Made by a program: the position numbers and the translations under genes. From Symploca sp. SIO2E9 (GTDB taxonomy: Bacteria; Cyanobacteriota; Cyanobacteriia; Cyanobacteriales; Coleofasciculaceae): a stretch of DNA of 37,336 bases. The stretch covers positions 1 to 37,336 of the forward strand of contig JAAHGS010000053.1 of assembly GCA_010692645.1 (NCBI GenBank), in the 5' to 3' direction. Shown piece by piece: positions 10,534 to 32,100 of this stretch (positions within the stretch are counted from its first letter, which is position 1; each line of letters starts with the position of its first letter). The notes below the pieces were generated by a model, which did not search any database, had not been told where the DNA came from, and saw only the letters and a list, made by a program, of their open reading frames with translations.

Positions 10534-10659
10534 AGCAGTCCCACCCTGCTTATATAAAATCTATTTTTGATCATTTTGACATACTTGTTAGGCTTATTGA
10601 TCAATTTTTAGTCATGATTTAAGAAGTCTCTTACTCAAAAGATGGCTTTCATCCCTAGG

Positions 10660-10746
10660 GGGTGAGCGAAATTTTGGTTGGAATTTCAATTCTCCGCGTC
10701 TGGAGCGTCTGCTTACTCGTTCCCCCACTCTTTTTTTCGCTCACCC
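10660..10746. mobile_element. MITE-like element, copy 1, with 9-bp flanking duplication
   Basis: The left end GGGTGAGCGAAA (10660-10671) and right end TTTCGCTCACCC (10735-10746) are perfect 12-bp inverted repeats. CATCCCTAG flanks the element at 10650-10658 and 10746-10754, shifting the borders by one base, and is read as a target duplication. The interior is shared with copies 2 and 3. It encodes no protein of its own, but supplies the last residues of the neighbouring membrane protein. Confidence 0.85.
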
Positions 10747-12128
10747 ATCCCTAGATTTCGATACACCACCCCAGAAATTGCTGACAACAGCAACCACACT
10801 AGCGTATTAACCCGCAAGTCAAACAGAGTCACATCCACCAGATTAAATAGACTACAACCACCAAAAGCTACCAGAAAAGTAAACAGGATTAATGGCTGTT
10901 GAGGTTGATAGTCTCTATCTGAGGAGATGGCGACAACTGACCAATCTCTTAAGAGTCGGATACCTTGAACTATCACCCAGCCAACTAAGCAAAATAACAA
11001 TAGCGTGGCGGGAATACCAGTTTCAGCAGTCAGCATTAGCACTAAATTGTGGGGATGACCTAGCCAGAGATTCATTTTGGCTTCGTAGAGTGGTGTGAAA
11101 TTACGCAATCCCCAACCAAGCCAAGGACGCTCTAAAGTCATTGACCAGCTAAACTGCCATTGGGTTGTCCGCAGCAGGGCTAAAGGTCGATCAGGATACA
11201 TTTGGTCAGAAAGCCTCATCCACAGGTAAGATGGGACAATTTTACGCAACCAGACGCCTCCAGGTTCTGAACCAAAAGATGCCCATAGTACGCTACCTAC
11301 AGCTGTTACCACTGCTGTCACTAGCCAGTGCCAGCCTAGATAAAGAGCAAAAGCAAGGCAAGCGAAAATGGCAATCGCCCAACCATTGCGGGAGCTAGTT
11401 AAGAAAAGGGCGATCGCCTGAGTAATAACTAATATACTCAAAAACCACATCCCCAAGTCTTGAGAATTATTTGGGCTTTCTCGCCCAGCCTGAAACTTAT
11501 CAATCCACAGCCCTATACTTAAAATCAGAACGATTTGTAGATAAGCCGCTAGGATATTAGCATACATAAACACCGAAGCCATACGACCAGGGGGATTACC
11601 ACTCTCTGCCAATGCCCAACCTAAAACTGCATGTAATTGCTCGGGGCCTCTCCAACCTAAAAAATGCTGTCCTAAACCAAGGATGACAACTGGCAGTGAA
11701 GGAATTACCATCATCCAGGCTAATTGGCGCAGTTGTGTTGGTGTTTGGATTAGGGCGCTAAAAGCTGCAAAGACGGCGAAGAAGGGCACTAAATTTGCCA
11801 AGCCGAGGAAGGCTTCAGTGGGTTTAAAAGCGAAGCAGGCTGTAATTATTAACCAGAAACTTAATAGAGCTAATCCCCAATTTAAGGGAGTGCGAATAAT
11901 CTGGCGATGCTTTTGCCTCCAAGTTTCTGCCGAGGCAAGCAATAGCAAGATTATTCCGAAAGTGGGCATTAAAGGAAGAATTAGTAGCCCCAATTGGGTA
12001 GAGTTCCAGGCAAAATGCAAGCAACCTTCAGGATGCCAAAACCTCCCTTGGTGAGCAGCTGGTGCTGGTGTAAATCTACTGAAAATAGAGAAAAAGCTCT
12101 TCTTCCTACTCAAACTGGCTCCCAGCAA
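10713..12128 (-). CDS. O-antigen ligase/polymerase-like polytopic membrane protein (Wzy_C type)
   Basis: About 471 residues with roughly ten hydrophobic segments. A large loop near 260-370 contains RPWLGWGLRNFTPLYEAKMN and GHPHNLVLML, the signature of the O-antigen ligase/polymerase superfamily (which also includes IctB-like proteins). It probably joins or polymerises glycans on a lipid carrier. No ATG occurs before codon 54, so the start must be a TTG: either 12128, inside the upstream gene, or 12113, which overlaps that gene's stop as TTGA. The last eleven residues and stop are encoded by the MITE copy 1. Substrate is unknown. Confidence 0.82.
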   Translation of the reverse strand: MLGASLSRKKSFFSIFSRFTPAPAAHQGRFWHPEGCLHFAWNSTQLGLLILPLMPTFGIILLLLASAETWRQKHRQIIRTPLNWGLALLSFWLIITACFAFKPTEAFLGLANLVPFFAVFAAFSALIQTPTQLRQLAWMMVIPSLPVVILGLGQHFLGWRGPEQLHAVLGWALAESGNPPGRMASVFMYANILAAYLQIVLILSIGLWIDKFQAGRESPNNSQDLGMWFLSILVITQAIALFLTSSRNGWAIAIFACLAFALYLGWHWLVTAVVTAVGSVLWASFGSEPGGVWLRKIVPSYLWMRLSDQMYPDRPLALLRTTQWQFSWSMTLERPWLGWGLRNFTPLYEAKMNLWLGHPHNLVLMLTAETGIPATLLLFCLVGWVIVQGIRLLRDWSVVAISSDRDYQPQQPLILFTFLVAFGGCSLFNLVDVTLFDLRVNTLVWLLLSAISGVVYRNLGMGERKKEWGNE

Positions 12129-12952
12129 TCAGCACGGGTGAGGCGGATTTGTGCCAAGGCAAAGATTGTCGGGATAATACGACTGTAATTGGTAGCGATC
12201 GCTCTCCAGCCTAGGTCAGCAAAGAAATAGCCCCAAAGTACTGGACCAAGTAAGGAAAAAACACTGCGGGTAGCACTATAACGAGCAGCATTGGATGCCA
12301 TTGCCTGCCTGGCTGTTTTCATTGCCAGGTAATTCTGAAATTGGATAGCAGCAGCAGTACCACCTTTGACAACTGCTTCTTTAGCGACTTGATAACGAGC
12401 AAAATGCAGGGCAAACTGGCGAGCTATTTGCTGCATCAGGATCGGCTTGAGGATAGAACTAACAGCTAGGGCAGAACCGCCTTTGAGCAGTAGATTGATG
12501 GGGTTGTGCTGTAGTTGTACGGGTAGAGGTTCAGAGGGTTTTAACTTAGCAAGCGACCGCTGCACCCGTACAATTAGAGATTGTTTTTCTGATGCTGGCA
12601 ATCTCTTCCAGGCTCTACCCATTAAATTGAGAAAAATCTCTGCCTCTAAATCGGTAGTTGCCAGCTTTTTAGAATAGGGAATTTTTAGATAGTGACAAAC
12701 TTGAATCAGGGCTTGCCGGTAGGTAAATTGGTCTGTGCGCCCTCTCAGTACTGTCAATCCATCTGCAGCCAAGAAGCGAAAGCGCTGTTCTAGGGCATCT
12801 AACCAAATTTCTCGGTCTTGGCTACAGACTTTTATTGGTTTAGGCGTTTGCAGGTAATCTAGCGGGTTAAAACGACGGCGGAATAGAATTACCGTCAGCT
12901 GTTGCAATTCTTCTTCCGTCGCTAAATCTAACGCAGTTCTAAGCTCATCCAA
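12110..12952 (-). CDS. YaaW-like (UPF0174-type) family protein
   Basis: 280 residues. It opens MDELRTALDLATEEELQQLT and continues with FRFLAADGLTVLRGR and ATTDLEAEIFLNLMGRAWK, which I recognise as the cyanobacterial YaaW family. The C-terminal half is alanine-rich with hydrophobic stretches (GGSALAVSSILKP, VFSLLGPVLWGYFFADLGW) and could touch membranes. Function is not established. Its 3' end overlaps the O-antigen-ligase-like gene by up to 19 bp, implying cotranscription. It starts with ATG. Confidence 0.7.
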   Translation of the reverse strand: MDELRTALDLATEEELQQLTVILFRRRFNPLDYLQTPKPIKVCSQDREIWLDALEQRFRFLAADGLTVLRGRTDQFTYRQALIQVCHYLKIPYSKKLATTDLEAEIFLNLMGRAWKRLPASEKQSLIVRVQRSLAKLKPSEPLPVQLQHNPINLLLKGGSALAVSSILKPILMQQIARQFALHFARYQVAKEAVVKGGTAAAIQFQNYLAMKTARQAMASNAARYSATRSVFSLLGPVLWGYFFADLGWRAIATNYSRIIPTIFALAQIRLTRADCWEPV

Positions 12953-13000
12953 TTTAGTTACCCTCTACAACCCCAGATTCAATATCTGTCAACTATTCTA

Positions 13001-13036
13001 CAATCGGCTTGTTCCGATTGGGTGAAGGCTTTCACC
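13001..13036. other. Two adjacent small hairpins
   Basis: caatcgg (13001-13007) pairs with ccgattg (13014-13020); immediately after, ggtgaa (13021-13026) pairs with ttcacc (13031-13036). Neither has a T-tract. They lie about 50 bp upstream of the YaaW-like gene, so they may be in its leader or after the TPR gene. Confidence 0.4.
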
Positions 13037-13163
13037 TAAGTTGCACTGATAAGGGACTCCCAGAAGTTGGCTCTTGACAGTGGCAAATCCCCTCGCCTCG
13101 AGAGTCTCCGGAGTCCCCCTATCTGTTAATTTCTCTGCAAAAAAAAATTGGATGCACCCTTTT

Positions 13164-14486
13164 CTAAGGCTCTGTTACTTCTACAGGAGTTGATTCGATT
13201 AATTCGGATTCTTCAGACTCTACCTCAGGTGGAATAGTATCTTCAAATTCGTTAATTTGTGATTTTTCCAGCTCCTGCATATACTCGTCGAGTTCATCTA
13301 CCTTTTCAAGATTGCCTTCCTCTATAAACAAATTCCTGGCTTGGAGTAGAAAAGGCTTTGCCTCACTTTGGCGCTCTGAAAGTGCCAAACTCACACCGAG
13401 GTTATAAAATGCCTGTGGCTGATTAGGGTTAAGAAAAATAGACTCCTGGTAGGCCAAGGCAGCTTCCTCATACTCCCCTTGCTGCTGTAGTGCTACTCCC
13501 AGGTTGTAATAAGTCAAGGCATCTGTGGGTTCAAGTTGCACTGCAGACTCCAAAACAAGCGCAGCTTCCTCATACTTACCATCTTCAATTAGTGCCGCTC
13601 CTAAATGTTTGTAGGCGTCTACATGATCAGGTTCAAGTTTAGTAACCCAGCGAAAGCGGTCAATTGCCCCTTTAAAATCCCCTTGCTTGGCTAAAACTAT
13701 ACCTAATTGGTAATGAGCAGGAGTAAACTCTGAGTCTAGCTTGGTTGCTTTTTTCAAAGAGTCTTCAGCTTCTTCAAGCCTGCCCTGTTTTAGCTGCAGT
13801 AGCCCTAACTGGTAATGACCTTCAAGCAATTCAGGATTACTGTTAACAGCTTGCTGAAAGTTGTTAATTGCCGGTTGTGTCTCATCCCGCTTTGCCCGTA
13901 ACAGCGCCAAGTTATACTGAGCTACAGCATAATCTGGTTTAAGACTAATTGCTTGTTGATACTCAGCGATCGCTTCCTCTTGCCTGTCCTGTGTATCATA
14001 AGCTAAACCAAGGTTATAGTAAGCTGGTGCTGAATCTGGATTTAGAGATAGTGCTCGTTGATAGGAACTAATTGCCCCCCCAACGTTACCTTGGCGATAC
14101 TGCATTAAACCCAGGTTGTAGTGAGCCTCTGCCAGATTCGGATTTAGACCAATAGCAATGCGGTATTGTTCAGTTGCTAGCTCAGTTTTACCTTGCTCGA
14201 ACAGAGCATTGCCTAACAGATAATAGGCCATGGTAATAGAAGGATCAAACTGTAGAGCTTTGCGAAAATGTTGCTCTGCTTCTTGGAAATGACCACGTTC
14301 ATAACGCATTACTCCTTGTTGGAAGTAAGAAGCAGCATCAAGATCCCTAGAATATAAGCCTTGCACTAGCTGCTTGTTTCCTTGATACTGGGAAACTTGA
14401 GTGGGCTTAGCATCTGCGGTAGTTGTTAAACTGAAACCGAGTAGAACAGCTGCAATCAGCGGTATGCTTCTGTAGTATTTGGACAT
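13164..14486 (-). CDS. Secreted or periplasmic TPR-repeat protein
   Basis: 440 residues from the ATG at 14486. I prefer that start because it gives a clean signal peptide (MSKYYRSIPLIAAVLLGFSL, then TTADA). A longer frame begins at 14528. About ten to eleven tetratricopeptide repeats follow from residue 45 to 385, each with the YYNLG or AHYQLG type helix A and P at the end. The tail is acidic (EESELIEST...). TPR arrays bind other proteins; the partner is unknown. It is transcribed in the same direction as the YaaW-like gene, 211 bp away. The 310 bp towards queA hold MITE copy 2 and a heptamer repeat. Confidence 0.88.
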   Translation of the reverse strand: MSKYYRSIPLIAAVLLGFSLTTTADAKPTQVSQYQGNKQLVQGLYSRDLDAASYFQQGVMRYERGHFQEAEQHFRKALQFDPSITMAYYLLGNALFEQGKTELATEQYRIAIGLNPNLAEAHYNLGLMQYRQGNVGGAISSYQRALSLNPDSAPAYYNLGLAYDTQDRQEEAIAEYQQAISLKPDYAVAQYNLALLRAKRDETQPAINNFQQAVNSNPELLEGHYQLGLLQLKQGRLEEAEDSLKKATKLDSEFTPAHYQLGIVLAKQGDFKGAIDRFRWVTKLEPDHVDAYKHLGAALIEDGKYEEAALVLESAVQLEPTDALTYYNLGVALQQQGEYEEAALAYQESIFLNPNQPQAFYNLGVSLALSERQSEAKPFLLQARNLFIEEGNLEKVDELDEYMQELEKSQINEFEDTIPPEVESEESELIESTPVEVTEP

Positions 14487-14642
14487 AGGTAGAAGTAATA
14501 TATTATCCCTGGTAGCTGCTAATCTCAACCATAACTTGGAGGTTTAACAGTTAATCAAAATCATCTCCCCATCCCCCCCCATCCCTCCATCTTCGTAAAG
14601 ATGCAATTTATAGCAGTCGCCACAACTGTTAGGACTGTTTCT

Positions 14643-14664
14643 TGTTCCCTGTTCCCTGTTCCCT
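14643..14664. repeat. Heptamer tandem repeat (TTCCCTG)n
   Basis: Three copies of TTCCCTG in the intergenic space between the TPR gene and MITE copy 2; same unit as at 2265 and 18942. Confidence 0.75.
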
Positions 14665-14689
14665 TTGATCCAAAATAGGATTTCCTAAC

Positions 14690-14791
14690 GGGTGAGCGAA
14701 ATTTTGGTTGGAATTTTAATTCTCCGCGTCTCCGCGTCTGGGCGTCTCCGCGTCTGCTTAATTATTTCCCCACTCTTTTTTTCGCTCACCC
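14690..14791. mobile_element. MITE-like element, copy 2, with exact 9-bp target duplication
   Basis: The ends GGGTGAGCGAAA and TTTCGCTCACCC are perfect 12-bp inverted repeats. TTTCCTAAC is present exactly on both sides (14681-14689 and 14792-14800). The interior has four 8-9 bp units of the CCGCGTCT type. It inserted at the very end of queA: the queA stop codon lies inside the right target duplication. Confidence 0.9.
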
Positions 14792-14795
14792 TTTC

Positions 14796-16118
14796 CTAAC
14801 CGCCCTGTCGGTTGCTATAAATGTGTGACAGCCTAGCTTCGGGCAAAATCAACATCGCATCGCCAAAGGAATAGAAGCGATATTGCTGTGCGATCGCTTC
14901 CTGATATAAATTAAGCAAGCGCTCCCTACCTACCATGGCGCTAACTAGCATCAATAAACTAGAGCGGGGCAAGTGGAAATTGGTAATCAATCCCTCCACC
15001 ACCCGCCAGCGATAGCCTGGATAGATGAACAACTGTGTTTTGCCACAATAGGGTTGCAATGTACCGCTAGCAGCTGCTCCCTCTAAGGCTCGTACCGCTG
15101 TTGTACCTACAGCAATAACTCTTCCTCCTGCCTGTTTAGTTTTCCTAATTGCCTCCACCGTTGATTGCGGTACTTGTAGCCACTCGGCATGCATTTTGTG
15201 AGTAGTGATATCTTCTACTTCTACAGGTCGAAATGTGCCAACACCCACATGTAGAGTTATGTAAGCCTGATTAATTTCTCGCTGCTGGCACTCCTCTAGC
15301 AGTTGTTTAGTAAAATGTAGTCCTGCAGTGGGGGCTGCGATCGCACCAGGGGTTTGAGCATAAACTGTCTGATATTGTTGAGGGGTAGATTGGGAATCAG
15401 TAATGTAGGGTGGTAGTGGAATTTGACCATACTCATTCAACAGAGACTCCCAGGACATCCCATCTGGGATATCGAAGTGTAATATACGCCCACTAGTAGC
15501 TTCATCTCTGGCTATAACTTTGGCACTTAGAGGAGGAATTGGGGGATTTCCCCCATCTGTGCATGGGGTAGTTGCAGGGGATTGTTGTTGCTCTGTGCGG
15601 GGTGTAAACACAATTTTCGCCCCTGGAGGGAGACGCCTGCCCGGTTTCACTAGAGCCAACCAACAATTATTTGGTTGTTCCTCTAATAACAATACTTCTA
15701 CAGGTGCCCCTGTAGATTTATGACCATAGAGTCGAGCTGGAATGACGCGAGTATTGTTTAACACCAACAAATCCCCTGGATGCAGTCGTTGGGGTAAATC
15801 ACTGAAAAGGGAGTGAGTATGGTGAGTCGGTGCATCAACTACCAGCATTCGTGAACTATCTCTTTTGCTCAAGGGAGTTTGAGCAATTAGTTCCTTGGGC
15901 AGTTCATAATCATAGCTAGAAAGCAATTTTTCATCTCTCAAAGGGACAGCCTCACCCTCGCTCGAAGTTCTTTTTTCGTTTTTATCCCAGCTCTGAGATG
16001 GGTGTGGCTCAGATGCTGTCTCAACTTCTAAAGAACTCATTGCTTCAATTGTGTCATCACCATGCTGATTTTGAGATTGAGCATTTGTGGGATCAACTTT
16101 GTTATTAATTCTTATCAT
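14796..16118 (-). CDS. queA: S-adenosylmethionine:tRNA ribosyltransferase-isomerase
   Basis: Makes epoxyqueuosine in tRNA by transferring ribose from SAM. Core motifs are YDYELPKELIAQTPL, LLVLNNTRVIPARL, GAPVEVLLLE, VKPGRRLPPGAK, PTAGLHFT and the C-terminal TNFHLPRSSLLMLVSA. 440 residues is about 70 more than usual. The first 64 are a low-complexity extension with no counterpart that I know, and a Pro/Thr-rich insert sits near 175-195. The conserved part begins at LLSSYDYELP, where an in-frame TTG (15926) has a GAGAG about 8 bases upstream, so the true start may be there or at the ATG encoding Met27. Confidence 0.93.
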   Translation of the reverse strand: MIRINNKVDPTNAQSQNQHGDDTIEAMSSLEVETASEPHPSQSWDKNEKRTSSEGEAVPLRDEKLLSSYDYELPKELIAQTPLSKRDSSRMLVVDAPTHHTHSLFSDLPQRLHPGDLLVLNNTRVIPARLYGHKSTGAPVEVLLLEEQPNNCWLALVKPGRRLPPGAKIVFTPRTEQQQSPATTPCTDGGNPPIPPLSAKVIARDEATSGRILHFDIPDGMSWESLLNEYGQIPLPPYITDSQSTPQQYQTVYAQTPGAIAAPTAGLHFTKQLLEECQQREINQAYITLHVGVGTFRPVEVEDITTHKMHAEWLQVPQSTVEAIRKTKQAGGRVIAVGTTAVRALEGAAASGTLQPYCGKTQLFIYPGYRWRVVEGLITNFHLPRSSLLMLVSAMVGRERLLNLYQEAIAQQYRFYSFGDAMLILPEARLSHIYSNRQGG

Positions 16119-16362
16119 TTAATGAGTCATCCTTAGTTTATATAGCCATAAGCAATTGCCATCAACAAGAGACGAAAATCTTTCTCCGCCTGCTTTCAGA
16201 GCGCCTCTGCTTACCTCCTTACTCCCTATTTTCAAATTAAATCTTGCTAAATTGGGTAAGATCCCCTAACTGATATCGGGTGCTTTTCCCCTAGCACTCT
16301 AAGATCGACAGGGCGACAATGATGGTATAGAAACTATTTCAACTCCTAGGCCAAGAATCCCA

Positions 16363-16752
16363 ATGGATTACCTCTACTTTCTGGCAAATGCTAGCCTAAC
16401 CCTGCGAGTGGTTGAGTATCTCAACACCACTTCTGAGTTACCTGTTCAATTCATAACGGTGATTCATCAGATTGATGGCTGGGTAGTTAAGGTTAAAATG
16501 AAGCATCCTTTAACTCCTCGCCAGCATGGAGATTTTCGAGCTTATATGAATGAATTGGGTATTCCCTGTGATCCAGAAATTCGCTTGCAAATGGCACTTT
16601 GGAGTCTAGAGACTGGACAATCCCCCATAGATGTGATGCGTCGCTACCAAGTCGCCGTAGTTTCTCACGGTTGTCCTGACAAGAGCGACATCGAAGCATT
16701 TCGACAACAGTTCACAATGGGTTTAGGATACTGCCCAGAAACTCTGGCTTAA
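16363..16752 (+). CDS. Conserved hypothetical protein
   Basis: 129 residues, soluble, no signal peptide or membrane segment. I do not recognise a domain. Typical features are a WVVKVKMKHPLTPRQHGDF stretch and a C-terminal SHGCPDKSDIEAFRQQF. Codon use and composition look normal for the region, and it stands divergent to queA with 244 bp for two promoters, so it is likely real. The start is ATG without a clear Shine-Dalgarno sequence. Confidence 0.7.
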   Translation: MDYLYFLANASLTLRVVEYLNTTSELPVQFITVIHQIDGWVVKVKMKHPLTPRQHGDFRAYMNELGIPCDPEIRLQMALWSLETGQSPIDVMRRYQVAVVSHGCPDKSDIEAFRQQFTMGLGYCPETLA

Positions 16753-16778
16753 GAAATTCTCTAATGGCAAAAACTTGT

Positions 16779-16812
16779 AAAAAGTCCCCTTTGGTATAGA
16801 TTCCAAAGGGGA
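16779..16812 (-). terminator. Terminator, mainly for the minus-strand gene at 16860
   Basis: tcccctttgg (16785-16794) pairs perfectly with ccaaagggga (16803-16812). On the minus strand it is followed by CTTTTTAC; on the plus strand the T-tract is poor. It can stop both convergent genes but suits the minus strand best. Confidence 0.75.
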
Positions 16813-16859
16813 TGGTTTGCTTGGAACATACACGAGTCAGTCATGTCTTTCCCATGGCT

Positions 16860-17480
16860 TTAGTTGACATAAACTTGACCATTTTCTTGAATGCTGAGCG
16901 TGCCTTTGATATCATCAAAAGTAGGGTCTGCTTCCAGCAAAACTTCTAACATTCCTGGCTGAGTAGATGTAGGGATAACATCTAGTAGCCCTCCATCCTG
17001 GCGCACTGTAGTGATTGTCACAGGTAAGGGCAAGTTTTGCAGGATAACCTCTTCCCTACCTAAAAGTGTGCGTTCTTCAGTATGCCCAATTGCTTCATAG
17101 GTAATGAGAGCGTTGGTATTATTCTTGAGAGTGACGGAGATTCTTTGCCCCTGAGGTATGACTCTAGTGACAGGAGCGCTTTGAGTTTCTGGTAGAGGTG
17201 GTTGACTAACCCCTGTAGGAAGTGGCTCGGCTGTTAAGGGTACGGTTTCAAACTCAGGGTTGAGTTGTTGTAGTGCTTCATTAACTGGACAACCCTGAGG
17301 AACTGAACGTGTATTGTTAAAGGGTTCTTCGTAGTAAATTTTAGGGCAAGGATTAGTCTCAGACGCTGATGCTGCTGATGGGGCTATAGTAATTACTGGT
17401 AACCCCATTAGTAAGCTACCACAGATTGCTTTAACTAGTTCAAGCTGCTTTTGATTGAGGTGGTTTTGTTGATTCATCAA
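16860..17480 (-). CDS. Secreted hypothetical protein
   Basis: 206 residues. The N-terminus has a basic stretch and a hydrophobic core (ICGSLLMGLPVITI) ending in ASASE, a Sec-type signal peptide, so the product is probably periplasmic or exported. After a Pro/Thr-rich linker (about 80-105) comes a beta-rich domain beginning RISVTLKNNTNALITYEAIG and ending TLSIQENGQVYVN. I cannot assign a family. It is followed by a terminator. The next minus-strand gene lies over 900 bp upstream, so it is probably transcribed alone. Confidence 0.75.
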   Translation of the reverse strand: MMNQQNHLNQKQLELVKAICGSLLMGLPVITIAPSAASASETNPCPKIYYEEPFNNTRSVPQGCPVNEALQQLNPEFETVPLTAEPLPTGVSQPPLPETQSAPVTRVIPQGQRISVTLKNNTNALITYEAIGHTEERTLLGREEVILQNLPLPVTITTVRQDGGLLDVIPTSTQPGMLEVLLEADPTFDDIKGTLSIQENGQVYVN

Positions 17481-17690
17481 AACTTCAATAAAAATCTATA
17501 TTTGTAGTATTTGTCAGTTAGGTTAGGCGAAAGTGTGCTTTTGGGGGTTTCCCCCATAAACAACTTTCCTAAGAAGAGGCAAGGAAATCCAACATATAGC
17601 AATCGCCAAGGCGGTTAAGACATTAAAAAAGTCCCAAACTCAGATAGAACTTGGCTTTTCATCCTGCCTCCTGCTATATATTCTAGGAAA

Positions 17691-17723
17691 GAGTTGGGTT
17701 TCACTGCGTTCTACCCAACCTAC
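17691..17723 (-). repeat. 33-bp dispersed hairpin repeat, minus-oriented copy
   Basis: Inverse orientation of the repeat at 18367, 30 of 33 bases identical. It contains internal complementarity between its gttgggt and acccaac parts. Confidence 0.7.
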
Positions 17724-18009
17724 TTTTATGAGGTTATATTGACCGGAGATGATCTGACTTCCTCCTCGGGGTAAATTTTAAATTTTGATACATTTACTTT
17801 TCTGAGTGCATGCTTTTGACTTCCCGAAGAAGTTGGCGCGGTGCTTCTTGCCTGAGAAGGTAGAAAAACTATGAATTGGCTCATAACCTTTCCTGAGCGC
17901 GGAGAGTTGACAAAGTAGATTGAATAGGTGTTTAATGCAAAAGGGAAAGCTTTGCGTCCGCTATTGTTGCAGATACCAGGGCTTTCTAACAATCAGGTTG
18001 CCCCCCATA

Positions 18010-18119
18010 TATAGCGTTTCTCGAATAACTGAGATACACCTAGTTCTGTTCCCTACTCCCTACTCCCTGCTCCCTAAAACCAAGAAGTTTGTATCTCACT
18101 AAGAAAGAGAAGTGCTATA
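18010..18119. repeat. Palindromic element with (TCCCTAC)n in the loop
   Basis: The left arm begins tatagc at 18010 and runs through actgagataca. The right arm is its imperfect inverse (tgtatctcact, ending gctata at 18119). The loop holds about three TCCCTAC/TCCCTGC heptamers (18049-18075). It is built like the element at 2181. Confidence 0.65.
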
Positions 18120-18366
18120 GTTCTCACTATCAGCTGATAGAACTAAACCAGACTTTGCCTAATTTATTCCAGTGTTATTCTTAACAATGGGTTTTGATTA
18201 CACCCATAAACAAATGAGTAAGAGGCGATCGCACTCAGAAACCAAACACTCTTAATGGCAACTGGTAGTTTCTTTTTTATTAAGACCACGAATCCCTCGT
18301 GTCTTGATTGCCTTTGTAGTAGCATTGTTGATACTCTACGGGATACTCAGTCTTGAAGTAGTAAAC

Positions 18367-18399
18367 GTAGGTTGGGTTGAACAAAGTGAAACCCAACTC
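18367..18399 (+). repeat. 33-bp dispersed hairpin repeat, plus-oriented copy
   Basis: Starts gtaggttgggtt and ends gaaacccaactc. The partner copy at 17691 is inverted. It lies 14 bp after the YraN-family stop codon and could act as that gene's 3' structure. Confidence 0.7.
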
Positions 18400-18413
18400 A
18401 CTAATGCTAACTC

Positions 18414-18920: not shown

Positions 18921-18941
18921 ATCTCAATTGGAGAATTCTTG

Positions 18942-19024
18942 TTCCCTGTTCCCTATTCCCTATTCCCTATCCCCTATTACTTATTACTTATTACTTATTA
19001 CTTATTACTTATTACTTATTACTT
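18942..19024. repeat. Two fused heptamer arrays: (TTCCCTR)n then seven ATTACTT units
   Basis: 18942-18975 carries TTCCCTG/TTCCCTA copies; 18976-19024 is exactly seven tandem ATTACTT. The junction is direct. It fills nearly the whole gap between the YraN-family gene and dnaG. Confidence 0.9.
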
Positions 19025-19032
19025 ATTGAAAA

Positions 19033-20991
19033 TCAAACTAGATCCGAGAGAGAAGCCCTACGTATTGGCTCTAATTCTTTGAGCCTTCTTTCTGCCTCAT
19101 AGAGCTGCTGCCAGTAATATTGTTTGGCCCTGAAATCAGCTACATAGTCTAACTTCTCCCATTGCTTCAAACAATACTGGCGGCGCTTCTGGTATGCTAC
19201 CTGCTCTAGACATGCTGCCGCTGCCCGAATTACTAAAGGAGTGCGACTGAAATCTTCAAAGTGTATCTCATCTAGATGGAAAAAATGAGCAACCTTTTTC
19301 ATTTGCTCAGGAAACTCAATACTCAGGTCTTGCAGTAATGAGATTAGTGACTCAACTGTATCATTTTGTCCTTCCTTAGCTGAGTCTTGTAGTTCTAAAA
19401 TCTTTTGCCATAAAAATCGGTGATGGGAGAGGCTAAATAGCAAATCTTGCTCTTCTAAAATCCTAATAATCTGGGCTCGATATTCAGGACAGTAGATATA
19501 AATACGCAGAAGTGAAGCCTCAGCTGGTTCTAAGAGATTGCTTTCAGAAGTAGTAGGTAAAAGTTGAAAGGATTGAGGCAGATTAGTATTCTCTGAACCC
19601 TTAAGTTTCCACTTTCGATACTTGCTAACTTGAGAGTTGAGATTTTCTTGAAGCTGTTTTAAATCTTGAGCATCTCCCCGACTTAACAATTGAGCACAAC
19701 GACTAATATAATAATTGCGAGTATTGGGATGGTCGAGTTTACTTATTAACTTCACCATTTCTTGAGCAACTCGCTGAAACTGGGAGACATCTTGAAGATT
19801 TTGACCACCCAGGAGTTGTTCAATTTTCCAGTCTAGCCAGAAGGGTGCTTCTTTAAGTAGCTGCCAATATTTATCTGCGCTATCAGCATGTTCTTTGAGG
19901 AATTCATCGGCATCCTTACCATCAGGCAAATTCAGAGTCCGCAGTTGAACTTTCCCACCGTAGACTAGAGGGTAAATCTTCTCAATCGCCCTCTCAAAGG
20001 CCTTGGTACCAGCAGCATCAGCATCAAAGTTGAGGACAATCTGCTTAGATTCGGTATAGCGTAGCAATTGCAGCACTTGCTCTTGACTTAGAGCTGTACC
20101 TAGAGGAGCAACAACATGTTTTATACCGACTGCATGGAGAGCAATCGCATCAAAATACCCTTCTACTATCACCGCCTGATCCTGCTTACTAATCGCTCCA
20201 TAAGCTTTATCGAGGGCAAACAGAATCTTGCTTTTATCAAATAACTTGGTTTCTGGAGAGTTAAGATATTTAGGCTGTTGCTCTCCCAAACTTCTACCAC
20301 CGAAGCCAATCACCCTTCCCCGTGTATCACAAATGGGAATCATCAAGCGATCGCGGAAGTAATCATAATACCCATTACCAGATTTCCGGAGTTTAATCAA
20401 TCCTACTTGCTCTACATGCCCTACTGGCTTACCTTTTTGTTCCACTAGGTATCTGTAGAGAGTGTCCCAACCCGATGGCGCATACCCCAGCTGAAACTCT
20501 TGAATCATTGCCTCACTCAAAAGCCTCTGAGATTGTAAATACTTAAGTGCCACTAACCCTTGAGGTTGCCGCAGAGCGTGTTTATAAAAAGAAGCTGCTA
20601 GGGCAAGAATCTCATAGAGTTGTTCTTGCTCCGAGATTTGACGCTGCAATTGTTGCCGCTGCTCTGGTTCAAGGGAACGCACGCTCACCTGGTAGCGTCG
20701 TGCCAGATCAAGTACAACTTCGCTGAAAGATTGCTTCCCTACCTCCATCAAGAATTTAATCGCATTACCGCTGGCACCGCAACCAAAGCAGTAGTACATT
20801 TGCTTACTAGGGCTGACGGTAAAACTGGGGGTTTTTTCCTGATGAAAGGGACACAAGCCTACATAATCCTTACCTCGTTTGCGCAGCACGACGCTCTCAG
20901 AGATGACATCTACCACATCAGCTCTTTGCTTAACTTCCTCTATTGTTTCTGGGTGCAGGCGAGGAGTTTTCAATGCAGGAGGAAAAGTCAA
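19033..20991 (-). CDS. dnaG: DNA primase DnaG
   Basis: 652 residues, bacterial replicative primase making RNA primers. The CHC2 zinc ribbon is Cys47, His50, Cys68, Cys71 (CPFHQEKT and CFGCG). The TOPRIM catalytic core shows VIVEGYFDAIAL with the metal-binding Glu, and NFDADAAG. The C-terminal part, from about 480, is the DnaB-binding region. The only plausible start is the TTG at 20991, shortly before the conserved LHPETIEEVKQRADVVDV; no ATG lies between them. It is followed on the same strand by the YraN-family gene. Confidence 0.96.
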   Translation of the reverse strand: MTFPPALKTPRLHPETIEEVKQRADVVDVISESVVLRKRGKDYVGLCPFHQEKTPSFTVSPSKQMYYCFGCGASGNAIKFLMEVGKQSFSEVVLDLARRYQVSVRSLEPEQRQQLQRQISEQEQLYEILALAASFYKHALRQPQGLVALKYLQSQRLLSEAMIQEFQLGYAPSGWDTLYRYLVEQKGKPVGHVEQVGLIKLRKSGNGYYDYFRDRLMIPICDTRGRVIGFGGRSLGEQQPKYLNSPETKLFDKSKILFALDKAYGAISKQDQAVIVEGYFDAIALHAVGIKHVVAPLGTALSQEQVLQLLRYTESKQIVLNFDADAAGTKAFERAIEKIYPLVYGGKVQLRTLNLPDGKDADEFLKEHADSADKYWQLLKEAPFWLDWKIEQLLGGQNLQDVSQFQRVAQEMVKLISKLDHPNTRNYYISRCAQLLSRGDAQDLKQLQENLNSQVSKYRKWKLKGSENTNLPQSFQLLPTTSESNLLEPAEASLLRIYIYCPEYRAQIIRILEEQDLLFSLSHHRFLWQKILELQDSAKEGQNDTVESLISLLQDLSIEFPEQMKKVAHFFHLDEIHFEDFSRTPLVIRAAAACLEQVAYQKRRQYCLKQWEKLDYVADFRAKQYYWQQLYEAERRLKELEPIRRASLSDLV

Positions 20992-21133
20992 TGAACTATA
21001 TTAATCTTACTGAATCAGGATGTAGTAAATTTAACTAGTGGAGTGTAGGAGGATATCACCTGCAAACTGCTATAGACTTATAGACTGAGTGGGAGTACTT
21101 ACTCATCTAAAGCACTGAATACAAGAGCAAGAG

Positions 21134-22489
21134 ATGGGAAGGATATTTATTTCGGCTGGTCACGGTGGTATAGAGCAAGGTGGTCGCGATCTCGGAGTGA
21201 TTGCTGGGGGTACAACTGAAGCCCAGGAGATGATCGCATTACGCAATAAGATTGTACCAGAGTTGCGATCGCGTGGCTTTGAAGTACTCTCGGTTCCAGA
21301 TGAACTGAGTTTACGGCAAACTATAGAATGGATTAATGCTCGCGCTCGTTCTAAGGATGTGGCGCTGGAAATTCATAGTGGCTTTGCTTCCAATCCTGAA
21401 GTTGGGGGAGCTAGTGCTTTTTACATTACCAACAATACCGAGCGCAAGAAGCATGCAGAGTTGATGCTACTAGCTCTCCAACGAAGCCTTCCCCAACTGG
21501 AAAACCGAGGAGCCAAACCAGATACAGCTGCAGGCTTTGGGCGTCTGGCTTTCTGCCGCGACACTGTACTTCCCTCAATACAGATGGAGGTTGGATATCT
21601 AACTAACCCAAGCGATCGATTTCTACTTCAGAATCGACGCGCTAAAATTTCTCAGGGTATTGCTGATGGTCTTGCCGCCTGGAGTCGTGCTATTTCTGGC
21701 TCTGGAGCAACAGATGAGTCGGAAATCATTTACCCCTCGATTGACCTCAAAATTAACAAACAGATTTATGATGAACAGGGCATTATTGTTAATAGTAATG
21801 CCTATATCCCAATTGATTTGGCAGACCGTCTGGGAGTCGATTTGACCAGAGCCCCTAATGTGCGCCGCTTTCAATACCGGGGTGTGGTTTACGTCAAAGC
21901 GATTGAACTGCGAGAATTTAATATTTCTGTCGGTTGGGAGAGTTCAACACGCACTTTGATTTTACGCTCCATTTTGAAGATCTGCCCCGGTTTTATCGAC
22001 CGCATCATCGGGCATGGCAATACCTCGACAGTGCAATTAATGATGTTTCTTAAGGCTAATAATGAAAAGGCACTTGCTGAGTTTCCCGATATAGCCAAAC
22101 TCTACAGAGAAGAGGCAGAAATTGAGGGAGTTAACTATGACATTGCCTTCTCTCAAGCAATGGTGGAAACCAACTTCCTGCGCTTTGGCGGTAGCCTCAA
22201 GCCCTCTCAAAACAACTTTGGTGGTTTGGGAGATGTTGCTGGGCGTCCCGAGGGTGCAACATTCCCCAATGCTAGACTGGGCGTGCGCGCCCATATCCAA
22301 CAGTTAAAAGCTTATGCCTCTCAAGAGCCGTTGGTGCAAGAACAGGTTAGCCCTCGATTTCGCTTTATCACTCGCGGTATTGCTCCTTTGGTTGAACAAC
22401 TGAGCGGACGCTGGTCAGCAGACACGCAGTATGGTAGAAGGATTATGGCAGTGCTGAGGCGTTTATACGATTCCGCTGAACTGCTCTAG
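21134..22489 (+). CDS. N-acetylmuramoyl-L-alanine amidase fused to a glucosaminidase-type domain
   Basis: 451 residues with two wall-hydrolase modules. Residues 1-190 are an Amidase_3 domain with zinc ligands His10, Glu29 and His81 and catalytic Glu152 in QMEVGYLTNPSD. Residues about 200-285 resemble a copper-amine-oxidase-N-like stalk domain (INKQIYDEQGI...YIPIDLADRLG...VYVKAIEL). Residues about 310-451 resemble an endo-beta-N-acetylglucosaminidase/lysozyme-like domain (FSQAMVETNFLRFGG, NNFGGLG, GVRAHIQQLKAYAS). No signal peptide is visible at the ATG, which is odd for a wall enzyme. Its 3' end overlaps the convergent gene by 47 bp. Confidence 0.87.
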   Translation: MGRIFISAGHGGIEQGGRDLGVIAGGTTEAQEMIALRNKIVPELRSRGFEVLSVPDELSLRQTIEWINARARSKDVALEIHSGFASNPEVGGASAFYITNNTERKKHAELMLLALQRSLPQLENRGAKPDTAAGFGRLAFCRDTVLPSIQMEVGYLTNPSDRFLLQNRRAKISQGIADGLAAWSRAISGSGATDESEIIYPSIDLKINKQIYDEQGIIVNSNAYIPIDLADRLGVDLTRAPNVRRFQYRGVVYVKAIELREFNISVGWESSTRTLILRSILKICPGFIDRIIGHGNTSTVQLMMFLKANNEKALAEFPDIAKLYREEAEIEGVNYDIAFSQAMVETNFLRFGGSLKPSQNNFGGLGDVAGRPEGATFPNARLGVRAHIQQLKAYASQEPLVQEQVSPRFRFITRGIAPLVEQLSGRWSADTQYGRRIMAVLRRLYDSAELL

Positions 22490-22877
22490 TTGGTCTAGTT
22501 GGGCGATTACAAATAGAGTCAATTTCTGCCAGCTCCTGACACAGTCTGGTTGGATAGTCACCAGAATCAGGCTCAATCAAAAAATCCTTAGTGTTCAAGC
22601 CGTAGCTAGCTACTGAATCTAACTGCAAAGGCCATGCTGCTAAGGGCAATGCTCCCCAAATTTCGACGAATTCAGGGATGCTCTTGGGGCGCTTGGCTCT
22701 TTCTATCCCTTGCAAAGCGCAAGCAATAGCTAATTGGTTAAAGCCTCTGAGCAAGGCATCAGGATAGGGGAATGGGTCTTTTTCCCCTCCTCTGACTTGC
22801 TCGAGATAATCAATTAGTCCCTTAGCAAGTAGATTCAGCATTTCCAAGTCATCTAGCTTGGTTGGATCATAGGTCAT
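22443..22877 (-). CDS. Hypothetical protein, tail-to-tail overlap with the amidase gene
   Basis: About 144 residues from the ATG at 22877; a TTG three codons upstream is less likely. The body (LNLLAKGLIDYLEQVRGG, ALLRGFNQLAIACALQGIER) is helical and soluble; I recognise no domain. The last 15 or so residues are read antisense to the amidase's final codons, through a 9-bp tandem duplication that encodes RPT twice. The original stop may have been earlier or the tail may be recently gained. Confidence 0.6.
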   Translation of the reverse strand: MTYDPTKLDDLEMLNLLAKGLIDYLEQVRGGEKDPFPYPDALLRGFNQLAIACALQGIERAKRPKSIPEFVEIWGALPLAAWPLQLDSVASYGLNTKDFLIEPDSGDYPTRLCQELAEIDSICNRPTRPTRAVQRNRINASALP

Positions 22878-23002
22878 AGAGGTCAATCAACTAACGCCAG
22901 CTTCTAATTTGGCTTAAGAGTGCTGGTAGTTGCCAACCCAAGTTAGTCTTAGCTACTGTCGAATCTGGTGTACAGCGTAGCGATTTCCTCCTAGATACAA
23001 CT

Positions 23003-23283
23003 TTTGACACTCCTGGCGAGTAGAGCAACGAGGATTCTTTCTTCACGGGGATTCTTATGAACTTGCCCTCAGAAAGCATACACCGACTGTCCGGCGGCGT
23101 TTGAAGCGATGTTTTTCGAGTTCTCGCCTTAACGACTTCTTCATTTGTACAAGATCTAGGATTTATGCTACCAGGGTTCCGGATCAGAAGTTGTCCGCTA
23201 GACCTACTTCGCCTTTTGTCTGTGCGCATTACCGCTAATACTATTCTACTATCAATCCCATTGTTTATCAATATTGCTCCCAC
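23003..23283 (-). pseudogene. Degenerate right end and 3' part of an IS200/IS605-type element
   Basis: On the minus strand the sequence ends in gaatcc...aggagtgtcaa (plus 23003-23036). This resembles the right end of the tnpB element at 36000 (gaatccccg...ggagatgtcaac). Upstream lies a stretch that looks like a tnpB tail/guide-scaffold region (cagtcggtgtatgctttc). No nuclease motif remains. The 130-codon frame across it is probably fortuitous. The call rests on remembered element ends and is moderate at best. Confidence 0.4.
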
Positions 23284-23340
23284 AAAAAGCCGTCAAGCGA
23301 AGGACGGGGCTGGAATCCCATATTTTTGGTCAAAGAGGTA
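23284..23340 (+). mobile_element. Possible second IS605-type right-end fragment
   Basis: A hairpin ccgtc/gacgg followed by ggggctggaatccca and a T-rich tail is like the right ends of cyanobacterial tnpB elements, now in plus orientation. No gene is attached. Confidence 0.3.
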
Positions 23341-23350
23341 TCAAATTAGC

Positions 23351-23389
23351 GAAAATAAAAGTCTCTCCTACTTTAATTAGGAGAGACTT
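23351..23389 (-). terminator. Strong minus-strand terminator without an assigned gene
   Basis: The 11-bp perfect stem (23359-23369 with 23379-23389) has a 9-base loop. On the minus strand it is followed by TTTTATTTTC. No intact minus-strand gene precedes it, which suggests an unrecognised or decayed transcript in 23390-23580. Confidence 0.7.
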
Positions 23390-23427
23390 GCTCCAAGTTT
23401 GACTACCCACTAGCTTTTTGAGCTACC

Positions 23428-23541
23428 TCAAGTATTCACTACAGGTGGCATGAGAACCATCAGCCCTCTGGAAGATTCCGGAGGTTTATTTTTGGGTTTA
23501 GCAGAAAAGGCTTTGGGGCAGATGGTTCTAGAGCAGAAGAT
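23428..23541 (-). pseudogene. Possible remnant of a small gene before the orphan terminator
   Basis: A 37-codon open stretch ends in GLMVLMPPVVNT and then a stop 38 bp before the terminator. It has no start codon. A Pro/Ser-rich reading in the next frame (EDFDKSSALEPSAPKPF) joins it smoothly if one frameshift is assumed. I do not recognise the product. Confidence 0.25.
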
Positions 23542-23749
23542 TTATCAAAATCCTCTCCATTCCTCTATCTAAAGGTGTAGATTAAATGTATCAGAGCTGA
23601 GGAAGGATGGGGAAAACTCTATTGCTGATTCCACTGGAACATAATAGTTATTAGACCTATCCCAAAAAGCATATAAAAATCTTGTACAGTAAGGATTGAT
23701 ATCTCATTTCCGGAGAGGTCTATTGTGTGGCGCAAGCAAGTATTAAGTG
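23542..23749. other. Upstream region of the TspO-like gene
   Basis: No gene seen. It should contain the promoter of the plus-strand gene starting at 23750. A purine-rich GGAGAGG at 23712 is too far from the start codon to serve as its ribosome site. Confidence 0.4.
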
Positions 23750-24223
23750 ATGATTAAATCTTGGATGGTGATTGGTGCTGTGACCCTATTAGTGGCGTTT
23801 GCTGGTAGTTGGCTCACACCTAATAGTATTAGATGGTTCAACCGCCTCATTCGTCCGAGATGGTTAACTTTTGAGACAGCAATTCCCTTTATCTGGATAA
23901 CTATTTTTATTTGCGGTGCTTGGTCGGCTTATGTTATCTGGGAAAGTGAACCGGGCAGCACGAAAACTTTGCAACTGATGGTTTTATATCTCTTGCTGGA
24001 ATTGGTGACTATTGCCTATACGCCAGTAATGTTTAAACTTCGTAGCCTCAAGATCGGTACAATAATTGGCGCTAGTGGTGCTATTTTGAGTTTCATACTT
24101 GCACTGTTGGTTTTTCCCATCTCTAGGTGGGCATTTATCTTGCTATTACCTTACTTGATTTGGAGTCCGATTGGTACTTATACCACTTGGGAAATGACTA
24201 AACTTAATCCTGAAGATGCCTAG
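23750..24223 (+). CDS. TspO/MBR-like membrane protein
   Basis: 157 residues with about five hydrophobic segments and many tryptophans. After the first helix comes NRLIRPRWLTFETAIPFIW, resembling the P-x-W-x-P stretch of TspO/peripheral benzodiazepine-receptor proteins. Later segments (WSAYVIWE, LLLELVTIAYTPVMF, LLLPYLIWSPIGTYTTW) fit the five-helix fold. TspO proteins bind tetrapyrroles and affect stress responses; the ligand here is unknown. I chose the ATG at 23750; a GTG one codon earlier follows directly on a stop codon. Confidence 0.72.
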   Translation: MIKSWMVIGAVTLLVAFAGSWLTPNSIRWFNRLIRPRWLTFETAIPFIWITIFICGAWSAYVIWESEPGSTKTLQLMVLYLLLELVTIAYTPVMFKLRSLKIGTIIGASGAILSFILALLVFPISRWAFILLLPYLIWSPIGTYTTWEMTKLNPEDA

Positions 24224-24262
24224 AATACTCTAATTTATTCATCAAAATTTGGTAGTTTTTTT

Positions 24263-24304
24263 ATGGTTCATGGTTCATAGCTCATGGCTAATGGCTCATA
24301 GTTT
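24263..24304. repeat. Degenerate heptamer tandem repeat (ATGGTTC-like)
   Basis: Six consecutive 7-base units of the form ATGGTTC, ATAGCTC, ATGGCTA. Confidence 0.6.
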
Positions 24305-24367
24305 CATGGGGTTGGTATTCGACAGTTGTGCAATACTTTATTTTCGGAACAATCAACAATAGACATC

Positions 24368-24435
24368 TTGCATAAATTCCCCTCAATCCCTCCGCATCGG
24401 TGGGATTGAGGGGGGGCAATTTGACTTTTGCAAGA
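24368..24435. repeat. Long imperfect palindrome
   Basis: A 12-bp perfect inner stem (cccctcaatccc at 24379-24390 with gggattgagggg at 24402-24413). The outer parts cttgca/tgcaag also pair. Possibly a bidirectional transcription barrier or a dispersed repeat. Confidence 0.65.
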
Positions 24436-24537
24436 GGTTTAATGAACTATGAACTCTTAATGATAGCAACAACTCTAATTAGCTCAAAGCTAATCTCAAA
24501 GTAATGCAATCAGAGTTAAATTGTAATATCCTCTTGC

Positions 24538-25863
24538 CTATGGATTAAAACAGCGTTCAGCAGTCTGTTGATGATCACCTTGTTGTGGATGCTCTGTAGT
24601 TACAACCACATCGTAACAACGATCTGTTCCTGAGGGCGCATTTTCTATTCCTGTAAAGCCGATTTGAAGTTGATACCACTCATGCTCTACACTACCTGTG
24701 CTAGTTGAGCTATAGGTGTTGTTAGAAGCTGCTGTCATCAGTTTATAGTCAAAGTCAGCATATCGATGACCATTGGTTATTGAACCATCGGCATTATTTT
24801 CCAATAAAGCATCAGGACTGCCGGGATAAACACCGTCAAAATAGGAGTTCTCATCTTTTTCTTTATTCCATTTCGAGGAGCTAGAAGGGAAAGGAGTATT
24901 TTGAACACTTAGATCATTCATACTGAAGATGTTGCTGTTAACAACATACTCTTTAACGTAGGTGCCAGTTTTTACTGATTGGTCAACAAAATTGCGCTCC
25001 TGTAAAGCTCCACTATTAACTCTATAAAAGGGATTAAGAGTCACAGATTTCAGGTTTAAGTTATAACCTGGATTGGCATCTAAACTTACCCAAACATCTA
25101 CATCTCCTAAGGAAGGAGTTTCAGAGATATTAATAGTAAACGGTTCAGTATCCGTCAATGCTGGATAAGGCAAATAATACATGGCGTTTTGAGCATCTTT
25201 GGCATAAGAAAACCTCCCTGAGGTAGTTTTTCCTGCTTCAGAAGCTCGCAAAAAAGGGTCTCGGATTTCAAAGTGGAGGTGAGGAAAATTCCCATCTGTA
25301 CTAGTTCCTGTCCAAGCAATGTGATCACCTTTGTTGACTTGAACTGGAACTAGATCTCCTTCTTGATTAGTCTCTTCCTCTTCAATTAAGACGTTGCTAA
25401 CATGATCGTAAATGGAGATTCGACAGGGATTGGAATTTGAACACTGCTCAGCTCCATTCGCCGGGTGTAACAACACAATTTTGCTATCTCTTTCATCAAT
25501 ATCAATAGACTTAACATAGCCATCAGCTGCAGCAAATACTGGATTATCAATGGGATTGTTACTACTATTCAAAGGTGTAGCTAAATCGATGCCGCGATGG
25601 AAAGAAATATCTTTACTTGAGTCAGTAAAGTTTCGATAACCAAAGCCATGGTGAATAGGAAAATCTGTGTACAGTGCGTTATCCATTCGTTCAGAGGGAC
25701 ATGGATTTCCTGAACTCCAGCTACTACTTGTGTCTTCATGAATACGCCCACAAAGCGGCCAGGTAAAATCCTGCCAAGTTTGAGCGAAGGCAATTCCGGG
25801 AGCGGCTATAAAAACTCCTACTGCAAAAGCAATAGTGATTAAAACTCTTATTAGCTTATTCAT
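24538..25863 (-). CDS. Secreted M23 family metallopeptidase
   Basis: 441 residues from the ATG at 25863. That start gives a clear signal peptide (MNKLIRVLITIAFAVGVFIA, then APGIAFA). An upstream frame to 25956 adds 31 unlikely residues. The LytM/M23 active site is complete: His89 and Asp93 in HRGIDL, then His194 and His196 in PHLHFE. M23 enzymes cut peptidoglycan cross-bridges or other Gly-rich peptides. The 240-residue C-terminal half is beta-rich, of unknown family, possibly binding. It is exported, so it acts in periplasm or medium. Confidence 0.88.
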   Translation of the reverse strand: MNKLIRVLITIAFAVGVFIAAPGIAFAQTWQDFTWPLCGRIHEDTSSSWSSGNPCPSERMDNALYTDFPIHHGFGYRNFTDSSKDISFHRGIDLATPLNSSNNPIDNPVFAAADGYVKSIDIDERDSKIVLLHPANGAEQCSNSNPCRISIYDHVSNVLIEEEETNQEGDLVPVQVNKGDHIAWTGTSTDGNFPHLHFEIRDPFLRASEAGKTTSGRFSYAKDAQNAMYYLPYPALTDTEPFTINISETPSLGDVDVWVSLDANPGYNLNLKSVTLNPFYRVNSGALQERNFVDQSVKTGTYVKEYVVNSNIFSMNDLSVQNTPFPSSSSKWNKEKDENSYFDGVYPGSPDALLENNADGSITNGHRYADFDYKLMTAASNNTYSSTSTGSVEHEWYQLQIGFTGIENAPSGTDRCYDVVVTTEHPQQGDHQQTAERCFNP

Positions 25864-25981
25864 GTGGTTGGGAACACAATCAAAAAATTCAGTCTTGCTC
25901 TTTGAGCATAACCTGTGTTTCTCAAGGTTGAAGTCACAAAATAGGAGCTTAGGCAAAACTATCTTGAAACCCTAATTTTTC

Positions 25982-26009
25982 GTAGTGGTAATTCATGAAT
26001 TACCGCTAC
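25982..26009. repeat. 28-bp near-perfect palindrome
   Basis: gtag(t)ggtaattc faces gaattacc(g)ctac with one mismatched pair. It is short, AT-centred and of the dispersed type in this genome's intergenic DNA. Confidence 0.6.
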
Positions 26010-26059
26010 CTCCGACATTTTTTGCGTAAGTTCTGATTCTTAAAAGGTTCCGAGGCAGG

Positions 26060-26164
26060 GGGTGAGGGAAAAAAAGGGTGGGGGAACAAGTAAGCAGACG
26101 CTCCAGACGCTCCAGACGCTCCAGACGCGGAGAATTAAAATTCCAACCAAAATTTCGCTCACCC
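26060..26164. mobile_element. MITE-like element, copy 3, with 9-bp target duplication
   Basis: Inserted in opposite orientation to copies 1 and 2. Ends GGGTGAGGGAAA and TTTCGCTCACCC match at 11 of 12 positions. CGAGGCAGG flanks it on both sides (26051-26059 and 26165-26173; the match extends one more base). The interior contains three exact AGACGCTCC units plus a partial one. It lies between the divergent M23 and AAA_35 genes. Confidence 0.88.
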
Positions 26165-26380
26165 CGAGGCAGGAGAAAAGAGCTAAATACCTGCGACATT
26201 GATAAAGATTGCTAGTTAAGGCTGGCTATGGGTAACTTGCTGCAATTTCATTATTATTTTTACTTGAATTTATCAAGAATTGTTGCGCAAAATGAATTCC
26301 CGCATAAAAGATGAAATTAATTCTGAGAAATAATAGTCAGCTCAACACTACAGATAAAGCAATTGGCTACCCACAATCCA

Positions 26381-32031: not shown

Positions 32032-32076
32032 GGTTTGCTGAATAAGTCTGGTGGTAAGGAGAGGGAGCTCTTAGCA

Positions 32077-32100
32077 GGGAGTAGGGAGTAGGGAGTAGGG
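32077..32100. repeat. Heptamer tandem repeat (GGGAGTA)3
   Basis: Three exact GGGAGTA units plus GGG. It is the reverse complement of the TCCCTAC-type array at 18049. Confidence 0.8.

Follow-up and report, generated by a model that had tools for sequence, protein, structure and literature searches.

What are the short repeats that recur along a contig of the cyanobacterium Symploca sp. SIO2E9, and by what means did they spread? The stretch examined here, which we call the window, comprises 37,336 nt of contig JAAHGS010000053.1 (contig C333). An earlier note, made from its letters alone, had described in it a three-copy family of miniature inverted-repeat transposable elements (MITEs) with 12-bp inverted ends and a 9-bp target duplication at each copy. 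The window repeats are members of a MITE family, as is shown across the family by 9-bp duplications, by sites that are empty in a related genome, and by a case of one element nested in another. The family is a large one and is very probably moved in trans by a DDE transposase of the ISKra4 family (Mutator superfamily).

Three Copies in the Window

All three copies lie where the earlier note had placed them: copy 1 at 10660-10746 (+; 87 bp), copy 2 at 14690-14791 (+; 102 bp), and copy 3 at 26060-26164 (-; 105 bp), the last being inverted with respect to the other two. The 12-bp inverted end GGGTGAGCGAAA is found unchanged at all but one of the six termini (in copy 1 the two ends read GGGTGAGCGAAA / TTTCGCTCACCC); the exception, at 26060-26071 in copy 3, reads GGGTGAGGGAAA and has one mismatch. 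The 9-bp duplication claimed for every copy holds exactly for copies 2 and 3, where the same 9-mer abuts both ends (TTTCCTAAC at 14681-14689 and 14792-14800; CGAGGCAGG at 26051-26059 and 26165-26173). At copy 1, however, the flanks in this common phase are ATCCCTAGG (10651-10659) and ATCCCTAGA (10747-10755), which match at 8 of 9 bases; the repeat previously reported there is shifted by one base and takes in the final C of the right end. Within the window, the 12-mer with at most two mismatches has 7 matches compared with 2.57 expected, and 3 of 100 shuffles reach 7. Taken by itself, this enrichment is weak evidence.

A Large Family with 9-bp Target Duplications

How far does the family extend? 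The source genome amounts to 7.75 Mb in 383 contigs. The exact 12-mer end occurs 231 times in it, compared with 3 times for a reversed control, and a 22-base end pattern that takes in both main subfamilies occurs 364 times, compared with 0. A family of three copies is thus true of the window but not of the genome. Six ends in this genome are of insertion-sequence type. We put the family at about 180 elements at least in its own genome; a rough upper guess is about 230, because the pattern recognises 126 of the 162 ends that complete elements have, in a sample that was itself selected by ends.

By complete elements we mean those with two recognisable ends in the stretches read, of which there are 81 distinct ones, 86-201 bp long and with inverted ends. 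Elements such as L001, L044, L057, L069, L088 and L090, in which the second end is absent or has changed too far, were left out by our script. An exact 9-bp duplication directly abuts 53 of the 81, and ten more have flanks matching at 8 of 9 bases (at least 8/9 in 63 of 81). Exact duplications of 5-8 or 10-12 bp occur in none of them, and the value for exact 9-bp duplications in a control with mispaired flanks is 0.0. Target base preference within the 9-mer is weak: among the 53 exact duplications, 57% have C at the position adjoining the left end. The earlier note had proposed collecting copies and flanks genome-wide, with duplication-free copies as the contrary outcome; most of those collected carry the duplication.

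Empty Sites and a Nested Element

Do the duplications mark real insertions? We compared 36 joined sites with a genome of the same genus (G017, taken as Symploca sp. SIO3C6) and read the ten best loci. At all ten the relative spans the junction without a gap. The 9-mer is present there once, exactly in six cases and with one mismatch in three; at the tenth site (L038), which lies within simple repeats, it has three mismatches, the other nine sites being clean. Further matches to the joined sites in G017 are mostly partial or within simple repeats. For the window copies themselves, the site of copy 1 is present in this relative without the MITE and in diverged surroundings, the site of copy 2 also has no MITE but its surroundings are too diverged for a clean reading, and the search for a counterpart of copy 3 found none. 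That the insertions were independent of one another, as previously claimed, is borne out by the uninterrupted flanks at the ten sites; flanks homologous between copies, the opposite outcome, were not what we found.

Here we give an example in which one element has entered another. At locus L032, the right terminus of one element is interrupted by a second element. When the inner element and one 9-mer are removed, the end of the outer element and its duplication, AGCATATCC, are restored.

A Probable Partner Insertion Sequence

Which enzyme might move these elements? The earlier note had proposed as a test the search for a full-length insertion sequence with the same ends, and such an element exists, intact, in another genome of the taxonomic family (G002). 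The end pattern occurs there exactly twice, inverted and 1932 bp apart, with the duplication GTTATTGGG and with 30-nt inverted ends that are 93% complementary. Between them lies a transposase of 429 amino acids that belongs to the ISKra4 family (model NF033572, 281.7 bits; cut-off 205), followed downstream by a second open reading frame (ORF) of 138 amino acids, which has no NCBIfam match and no Pfam match over the cut-off. In each of the five elements read for ORFs, the transposase is followed by a conserved second ORF of 133-138 amino acids (L125 644-1060(-); L183 2302-2715; L184 4325-4726; L185 4330-4743; L187 4354-4770). Its fold, predicted from four sequences, consists of a long helix, three strands and another long helix (mean predicted local distance difference test score, pLDDT, 77.6; predicted template modelling score, pTM, 0.65). 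The transposase is a single ORF of 427-430 amino acids in four of the five copies read and is in pieces in the fifth (L187).

Among named genomes, one scan found relatives of this transposase at 24 loci, with the ends on both sides in eight, on one side in one, and on neither in 15; these 15 are mostly distant and non-cyanobacterial, and have no ends at the mismatch limit used. Homologues with ends on both sides include those of Nostoc sp. LEGE 12450, N. linckia FACHB-104 and Calothrix membranacea FACHB-236. Shortened copies that retain both ends (1093 bp in G017, 1280 bp in G006, 375 bp in G004) are the steps expected between an insertion sequence and a MITE.

The distribution of ends and transposase can also be compared among genomes. 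Ends are found in 7 of the 20 genomes of the family. Five of the 20 have a closely matching transposase (best E at most 1e-32; G000, G017, G002, G006, G015), and all of these have the ends, compared with two of the 15 without such a match. Distant matches of 28-33% identity occur in G001, G004 and G013, of which G001 and G013 have no ends. Across the order, a stricter 23-base pattern is present in 20 of 291 genomes. Its counts are high for Symploca sp. SIO2E9 itself (271) and for genus g4 (46, 145 and 148), to which Symploca sp. SIO2C1 belongs. Plasmid searches returned 6 and 8 records; coverage of the query stayed below 80% in every one, and mainly the interior simple repeats were matched.

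Traces of the Probable Partner in the Own Genome

Is the partner also present alongside the MITEs of Symploca sp. SIO2E9? The window holds no partner transposase gene, in agreement with the earlier note (best tblastn match E = 2.4, in a search that covered the partner type and not other transposases). Elsewhere in the assembly, contig C135 has a relic of the partner transposase with 70% identity over approximately 100 amino acids. Contigs C248 and C375 start inside identical left ends, with a frame of 31 residues that is 77% identical to the start of the transposase, and the edges of C111 and C255 lie inside identical right ends. In addition, C375 has a third right end that continues into other sequence, as does a left end in C356. 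Identical ends at several contig edges are what is expected of a multi-copy insertion sequence collapsed in a fragmented assembly. Because the smallest contigs seen in this genome are approximately 3.4 kb, a collapsed interior of approximately 1.6 kb may have been left out of the assembly, and the partner itself may be intact.

A first search of the own genome had given two weak ISKra4-gene matches, which we rejected as partners because they are not bounded by the ends: one is a different, divergent element and the other a relic of the partner type. A search for ends departing from the MITE pattern gave 22 matches compared with 10 for a reversed control; they comprise MITE variants or chance matches and no insertion sequence. 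As a separate observation, a second divergent ISKra4/ISLre2-like transposase lies in the own genome at L126 1315-2472(+). It scores below the family cut-off, is accompanied by inverted repeats at 407-486 and 2510-2589 (80 nt, 91%) and by a small ORF at 479-799(-) that by eye resembles the second ORF of the partner, and adjoins the relic of the MITE partner transposase.

Several observations weigh against mobilisation by an ISKra4-family partner or blur its traces. By tblastn, no intact transposase gene is present in the own-genome assembly, only the relic and the edge fragments. Genome G005 has 155 ends and no transposase match at E <= 1e-10, and G004 has 63 ends and only a distant match of 33%; it is chiefly because of these two genomes that our confidence is slightly reduced. 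The 9-bp duplication is found in only three of ten insertion-sequence-type copies with both ends (those of G002, Calothrix membranacea and Fischerella muscicola). Among the MITEs, 18 of 81 have flanks matching at fewer than 8 of 9 bases, the outer element of the nested pair at L032 being one of them, and the duplication of copy 1 may instead be the one-base-shifted form CATCCCTAG. Only two of the 81 elements are identical to each other, and the amplification was therefore not all recent.

The alternative that survives best, though we consider it unlikely, is that the partner is extinct in the own genome, so that the copies are either immobile or moved by other enzymes. The lack of an intact transposase in the assembly would fit such a loss, as would the divergence of most copies compared and the many ends in G004 and G005, which likewise have no close transposase match. 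On the other hand, identical insertion-sequence ends, together with a transposase start, recur at several contig edges in the manner of a collapsed multi-copy element, whose interior may be missing from the assembly owing to its size. Far less probable is mobilisation by an IS1-type transposase, as the earlier note had suggested: IS1 elements also have 9-bp duplications and GG-tips, but the end-bounded transposase scores 281.7 bits with the ISKra4 model and has no match among IS1 models at E <= 0.1 (a comparison that concerns this gene and not IS1 genes of the own genome, which were not searched), and ISKra4 homologues are bounded by the same ends in several named cyanobacteria.

In the preferred reading, mobilisation in trans by an ISKra4-family transposase, the enzyme would bind the inverted ends common to MITE and insertion sequence, which share up to 26 identical bases (the element end at L015 compared with the insertion-sequence ends at C248 and C375). 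It would cut at the terminal GGG/CCC, the element would be joined to a target opened by cuts staggered by 9 bases, and repair would produce the 9-bp duplication.

Relation to Known Elements

The ISKra4 family is p-MULT 4 of the Mutator superfamily, with the groups ISAzba1, ISMich2 and ISKra4 and with hosts that include Cyanobacteria; members of the superfamily have inverted ends of 18-39 bp, a terminal cytosine and duplications of 8 or 9 bp (PMC3942029). The partner transposase scores over the family cut-off and the 9-bp duplication lies within this range, whereas the window copies differ from the family in carrying no gene. In the ISMich2 group, a -1 frameshift is reported to join the two ORFs from which the transposase is made (PMC3942029). 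In contrast, the partner has an uninterrupted transposase ORF and a conserved ORF of approximately 137 amino acids. As judged by their ends, which are common to an autonomous insertion sequence, the Symploca elements would classify as an ISKra4-family MITE of type I.

The nearest named cyanobacterial MITE is Nezha, reportedly the subject of Zhou et al. 2008. Mobilisation of Nezha by ISNpu3-like elements has been proposed (PMC3049150); Nezha may be unrelated or closely related to the Symploca elements. Anabaena sp. 90 has 147 short MITEs, 132 of them intergenic (PMC3542288). These resemble the Symploca elements in being short and mostly intergenic, a likeness of kind. They are reported to differ in having no insertion sequence with similar inverted repeats (type II), whereas one is found here. 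In the open-access literature searched, we found none that links ISKra4 to a cyanobacterial MITE; PMC9208149 contains all three words without, in its excerpts, making that link. What was an anonymous repeat becomes a defined pair of non-autonomous and autonomous elements with known ends, known duplication length and about 180 or more copies in one genome, and its influence on the ends of genes and on intergenic DNA can be annotated and tested.

Insertion Sites, Neighbouring Genes and RNA Folding

Are insertions distributed evenly between genes and intergenic regions? Of the 66 elements flanked by 1 kb or more on either side, 6 lie inside ORFs of at least 120 amino acids, compared with 34.4 expected. 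The insertions avoid genes. In the window, copy 3 lies between divergent genes. Copy 2 immediately follows the stop codon of a gene for queuosine synthesis (14796-16118, -), and this codon falls within the right duplication at 14792-14800. An ORF resembling O-antigen ligase (10713-12128, -; PF04932) takes its final 14 codons from copy 1 and the adjoining duplication; its counterpart in G017 has no MITE and a different C-terminus. Several members of the ISKra4 group have been reported to insert upstream of sigma-A promoters (PMC3942029). Promoter-like sites are found in 25 of 162 MITE flanks compared with 28.5 +/- 4.4 in shuffles, a count that uses a crude consensus and concerns the MITEs, not the insertion sequence.

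Compared with shuffled sequence, the RNA of both copy 1 and copy 2 folds well, with z from -3.9 to -5.5 (copy 1: -3.91 on the + strand and -4.37 on the - strand; copy 2: -4.97 and -5.46), while copy 3 is weaker (-1.86 and -2.53). A role of the copies as terminators is possible on these predictions. It is hardly credible, though, that the repeats are palindromic or terminator-like sequences retained for their function and spread by recombination instead of transposition: the intergenic bias and the folding of copies 1 and 2 would suit this, but the 9-bp duplications, the empty sites and the nested insertion speak against it, the outer hairpin is explained by the inverted ends, and the RNA of copy 3 is only weakly better than shuffles. 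A later use of the copies as terminators is conceivable.

A dispersed repeat of another kind, with the palindrome GTAATTCATGAATTAC, directly adjoins copy 3 at 25942-26045. Eleven matches to it are listed in G017, and the own genome has at least one more copy (L029), also near a MITE.

The Tandem-Repeat Interior

What lies between the ends? Copy 2 has a tandem array of the 8-bp unit TCTCCGCG (14721-14755, +; 4.4 copies) and copy 3 one of the 9-bp unit CAGACGCTC (26095-26128, +; 3.8 copies). In the genome at large, our script could parse interior units in 66 of the 81 elements: GACGCGGA (117), GACGCTCCA (57), GACGCCCA (20) and others. Element lengths cluster at 86-87, 94-96, 102-105 and 110-112 bp (74 of 81, the rest being 121-201 bp), as expected if units of 8 or 9 bp are gained and lost. 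The interior is read as a spacer that varies by approximately whole units, with no coding role apparent. That interiors grow is shown by the much longer arrays at L094 1377-1520 and at L088 from 1501 onward, where 8-bp units fill more than 130 bases. There is precedent for a minisatellite-bearing MITE in BrickBuilt of Porphyromonas gingivalis, the tandem-repeat interior of which also varies in unit number (PMC4596501), although its units are of 23 nt, compared with 8 or 9 bp here, and its host belongs to another phylum. The repeat-filled, variable core is the unusual part of the Symploca elements; the element type itself is well supported but ordinary.

Are the same units found elsewhere? Eleven short elements were read in other genomes (exact 9-bp duplication in six, exact 10-bp duplication in one). 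Two of them, in G006 and G017, have units of the home type; the remaining nine differ in their interiors, some of which hold tandem arrays of another kind. In the own genome, we fetched 30 of 100 listed matches to the tandem units (273 in all), which merge into 15 places. Arrays of the home units are there part of complete elements in seven places, accompanied by a single recognisable end in two, and without any end near in six. Because arrays also occur with no end near, either the MITEs take up arrays or the arrays outlive the MITEs. At loci of G004-G006, GACGCGGA is inside an element once, near one end twice and without an end three times; GAGCGGAG is inside twice, near one end twice and without an end once; and GACACGGA is inside once and in neither of the other situations. 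In G133, AAGTAAC and AAGAGTA are each found twice inside elements and never outside. Exact doublets of GAGCTGAG, GAGCTGGG, CCCACAC and CCCACACC were not found in the loci examined; for units without exact doublets, the 9- and 10-bp forms were read by eye.

One may speculate that the ends are a reusable frame, so that ISKra4-type MITEs repeatedly capture resident tandem arrays and thereby spread the short tandem repeats common in the genomes of filamentous cyanobacteria. The variety of interior units (GACGCGGA/GACGCTCCA here, GGAGCTGAG and GAGCGGAG in Symploca-like relatives, AAGTAAC in G133 and CCCACAC-based units in G267) is consistent with this, but we hold the idea tentatively and think it on balance doubtful. 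The tandem-repeat interior makes the origin and spread of cyanobacterial short tandem repeats testable.

The window has other short arrays as well. Heptamer arrays lie at 2266-2298, 14635-14664, 18050-18076, 18942-19027, 32076-32101 and 34233-34264, and the heptamer units in the window are TTCCCTG, CTGTTCC, TCCCTAC, TTCCCTA, TATTACT, AGGGAGT and GGGTGTA. A 15-bp unit is repeated in tandem 13.4 times at 1095-1295, within the overlapping ORFs 888-1544(-), 1083-1520(+) and 1099-1536(+), and the array possibly encodes a protein with 5-residue repeats.

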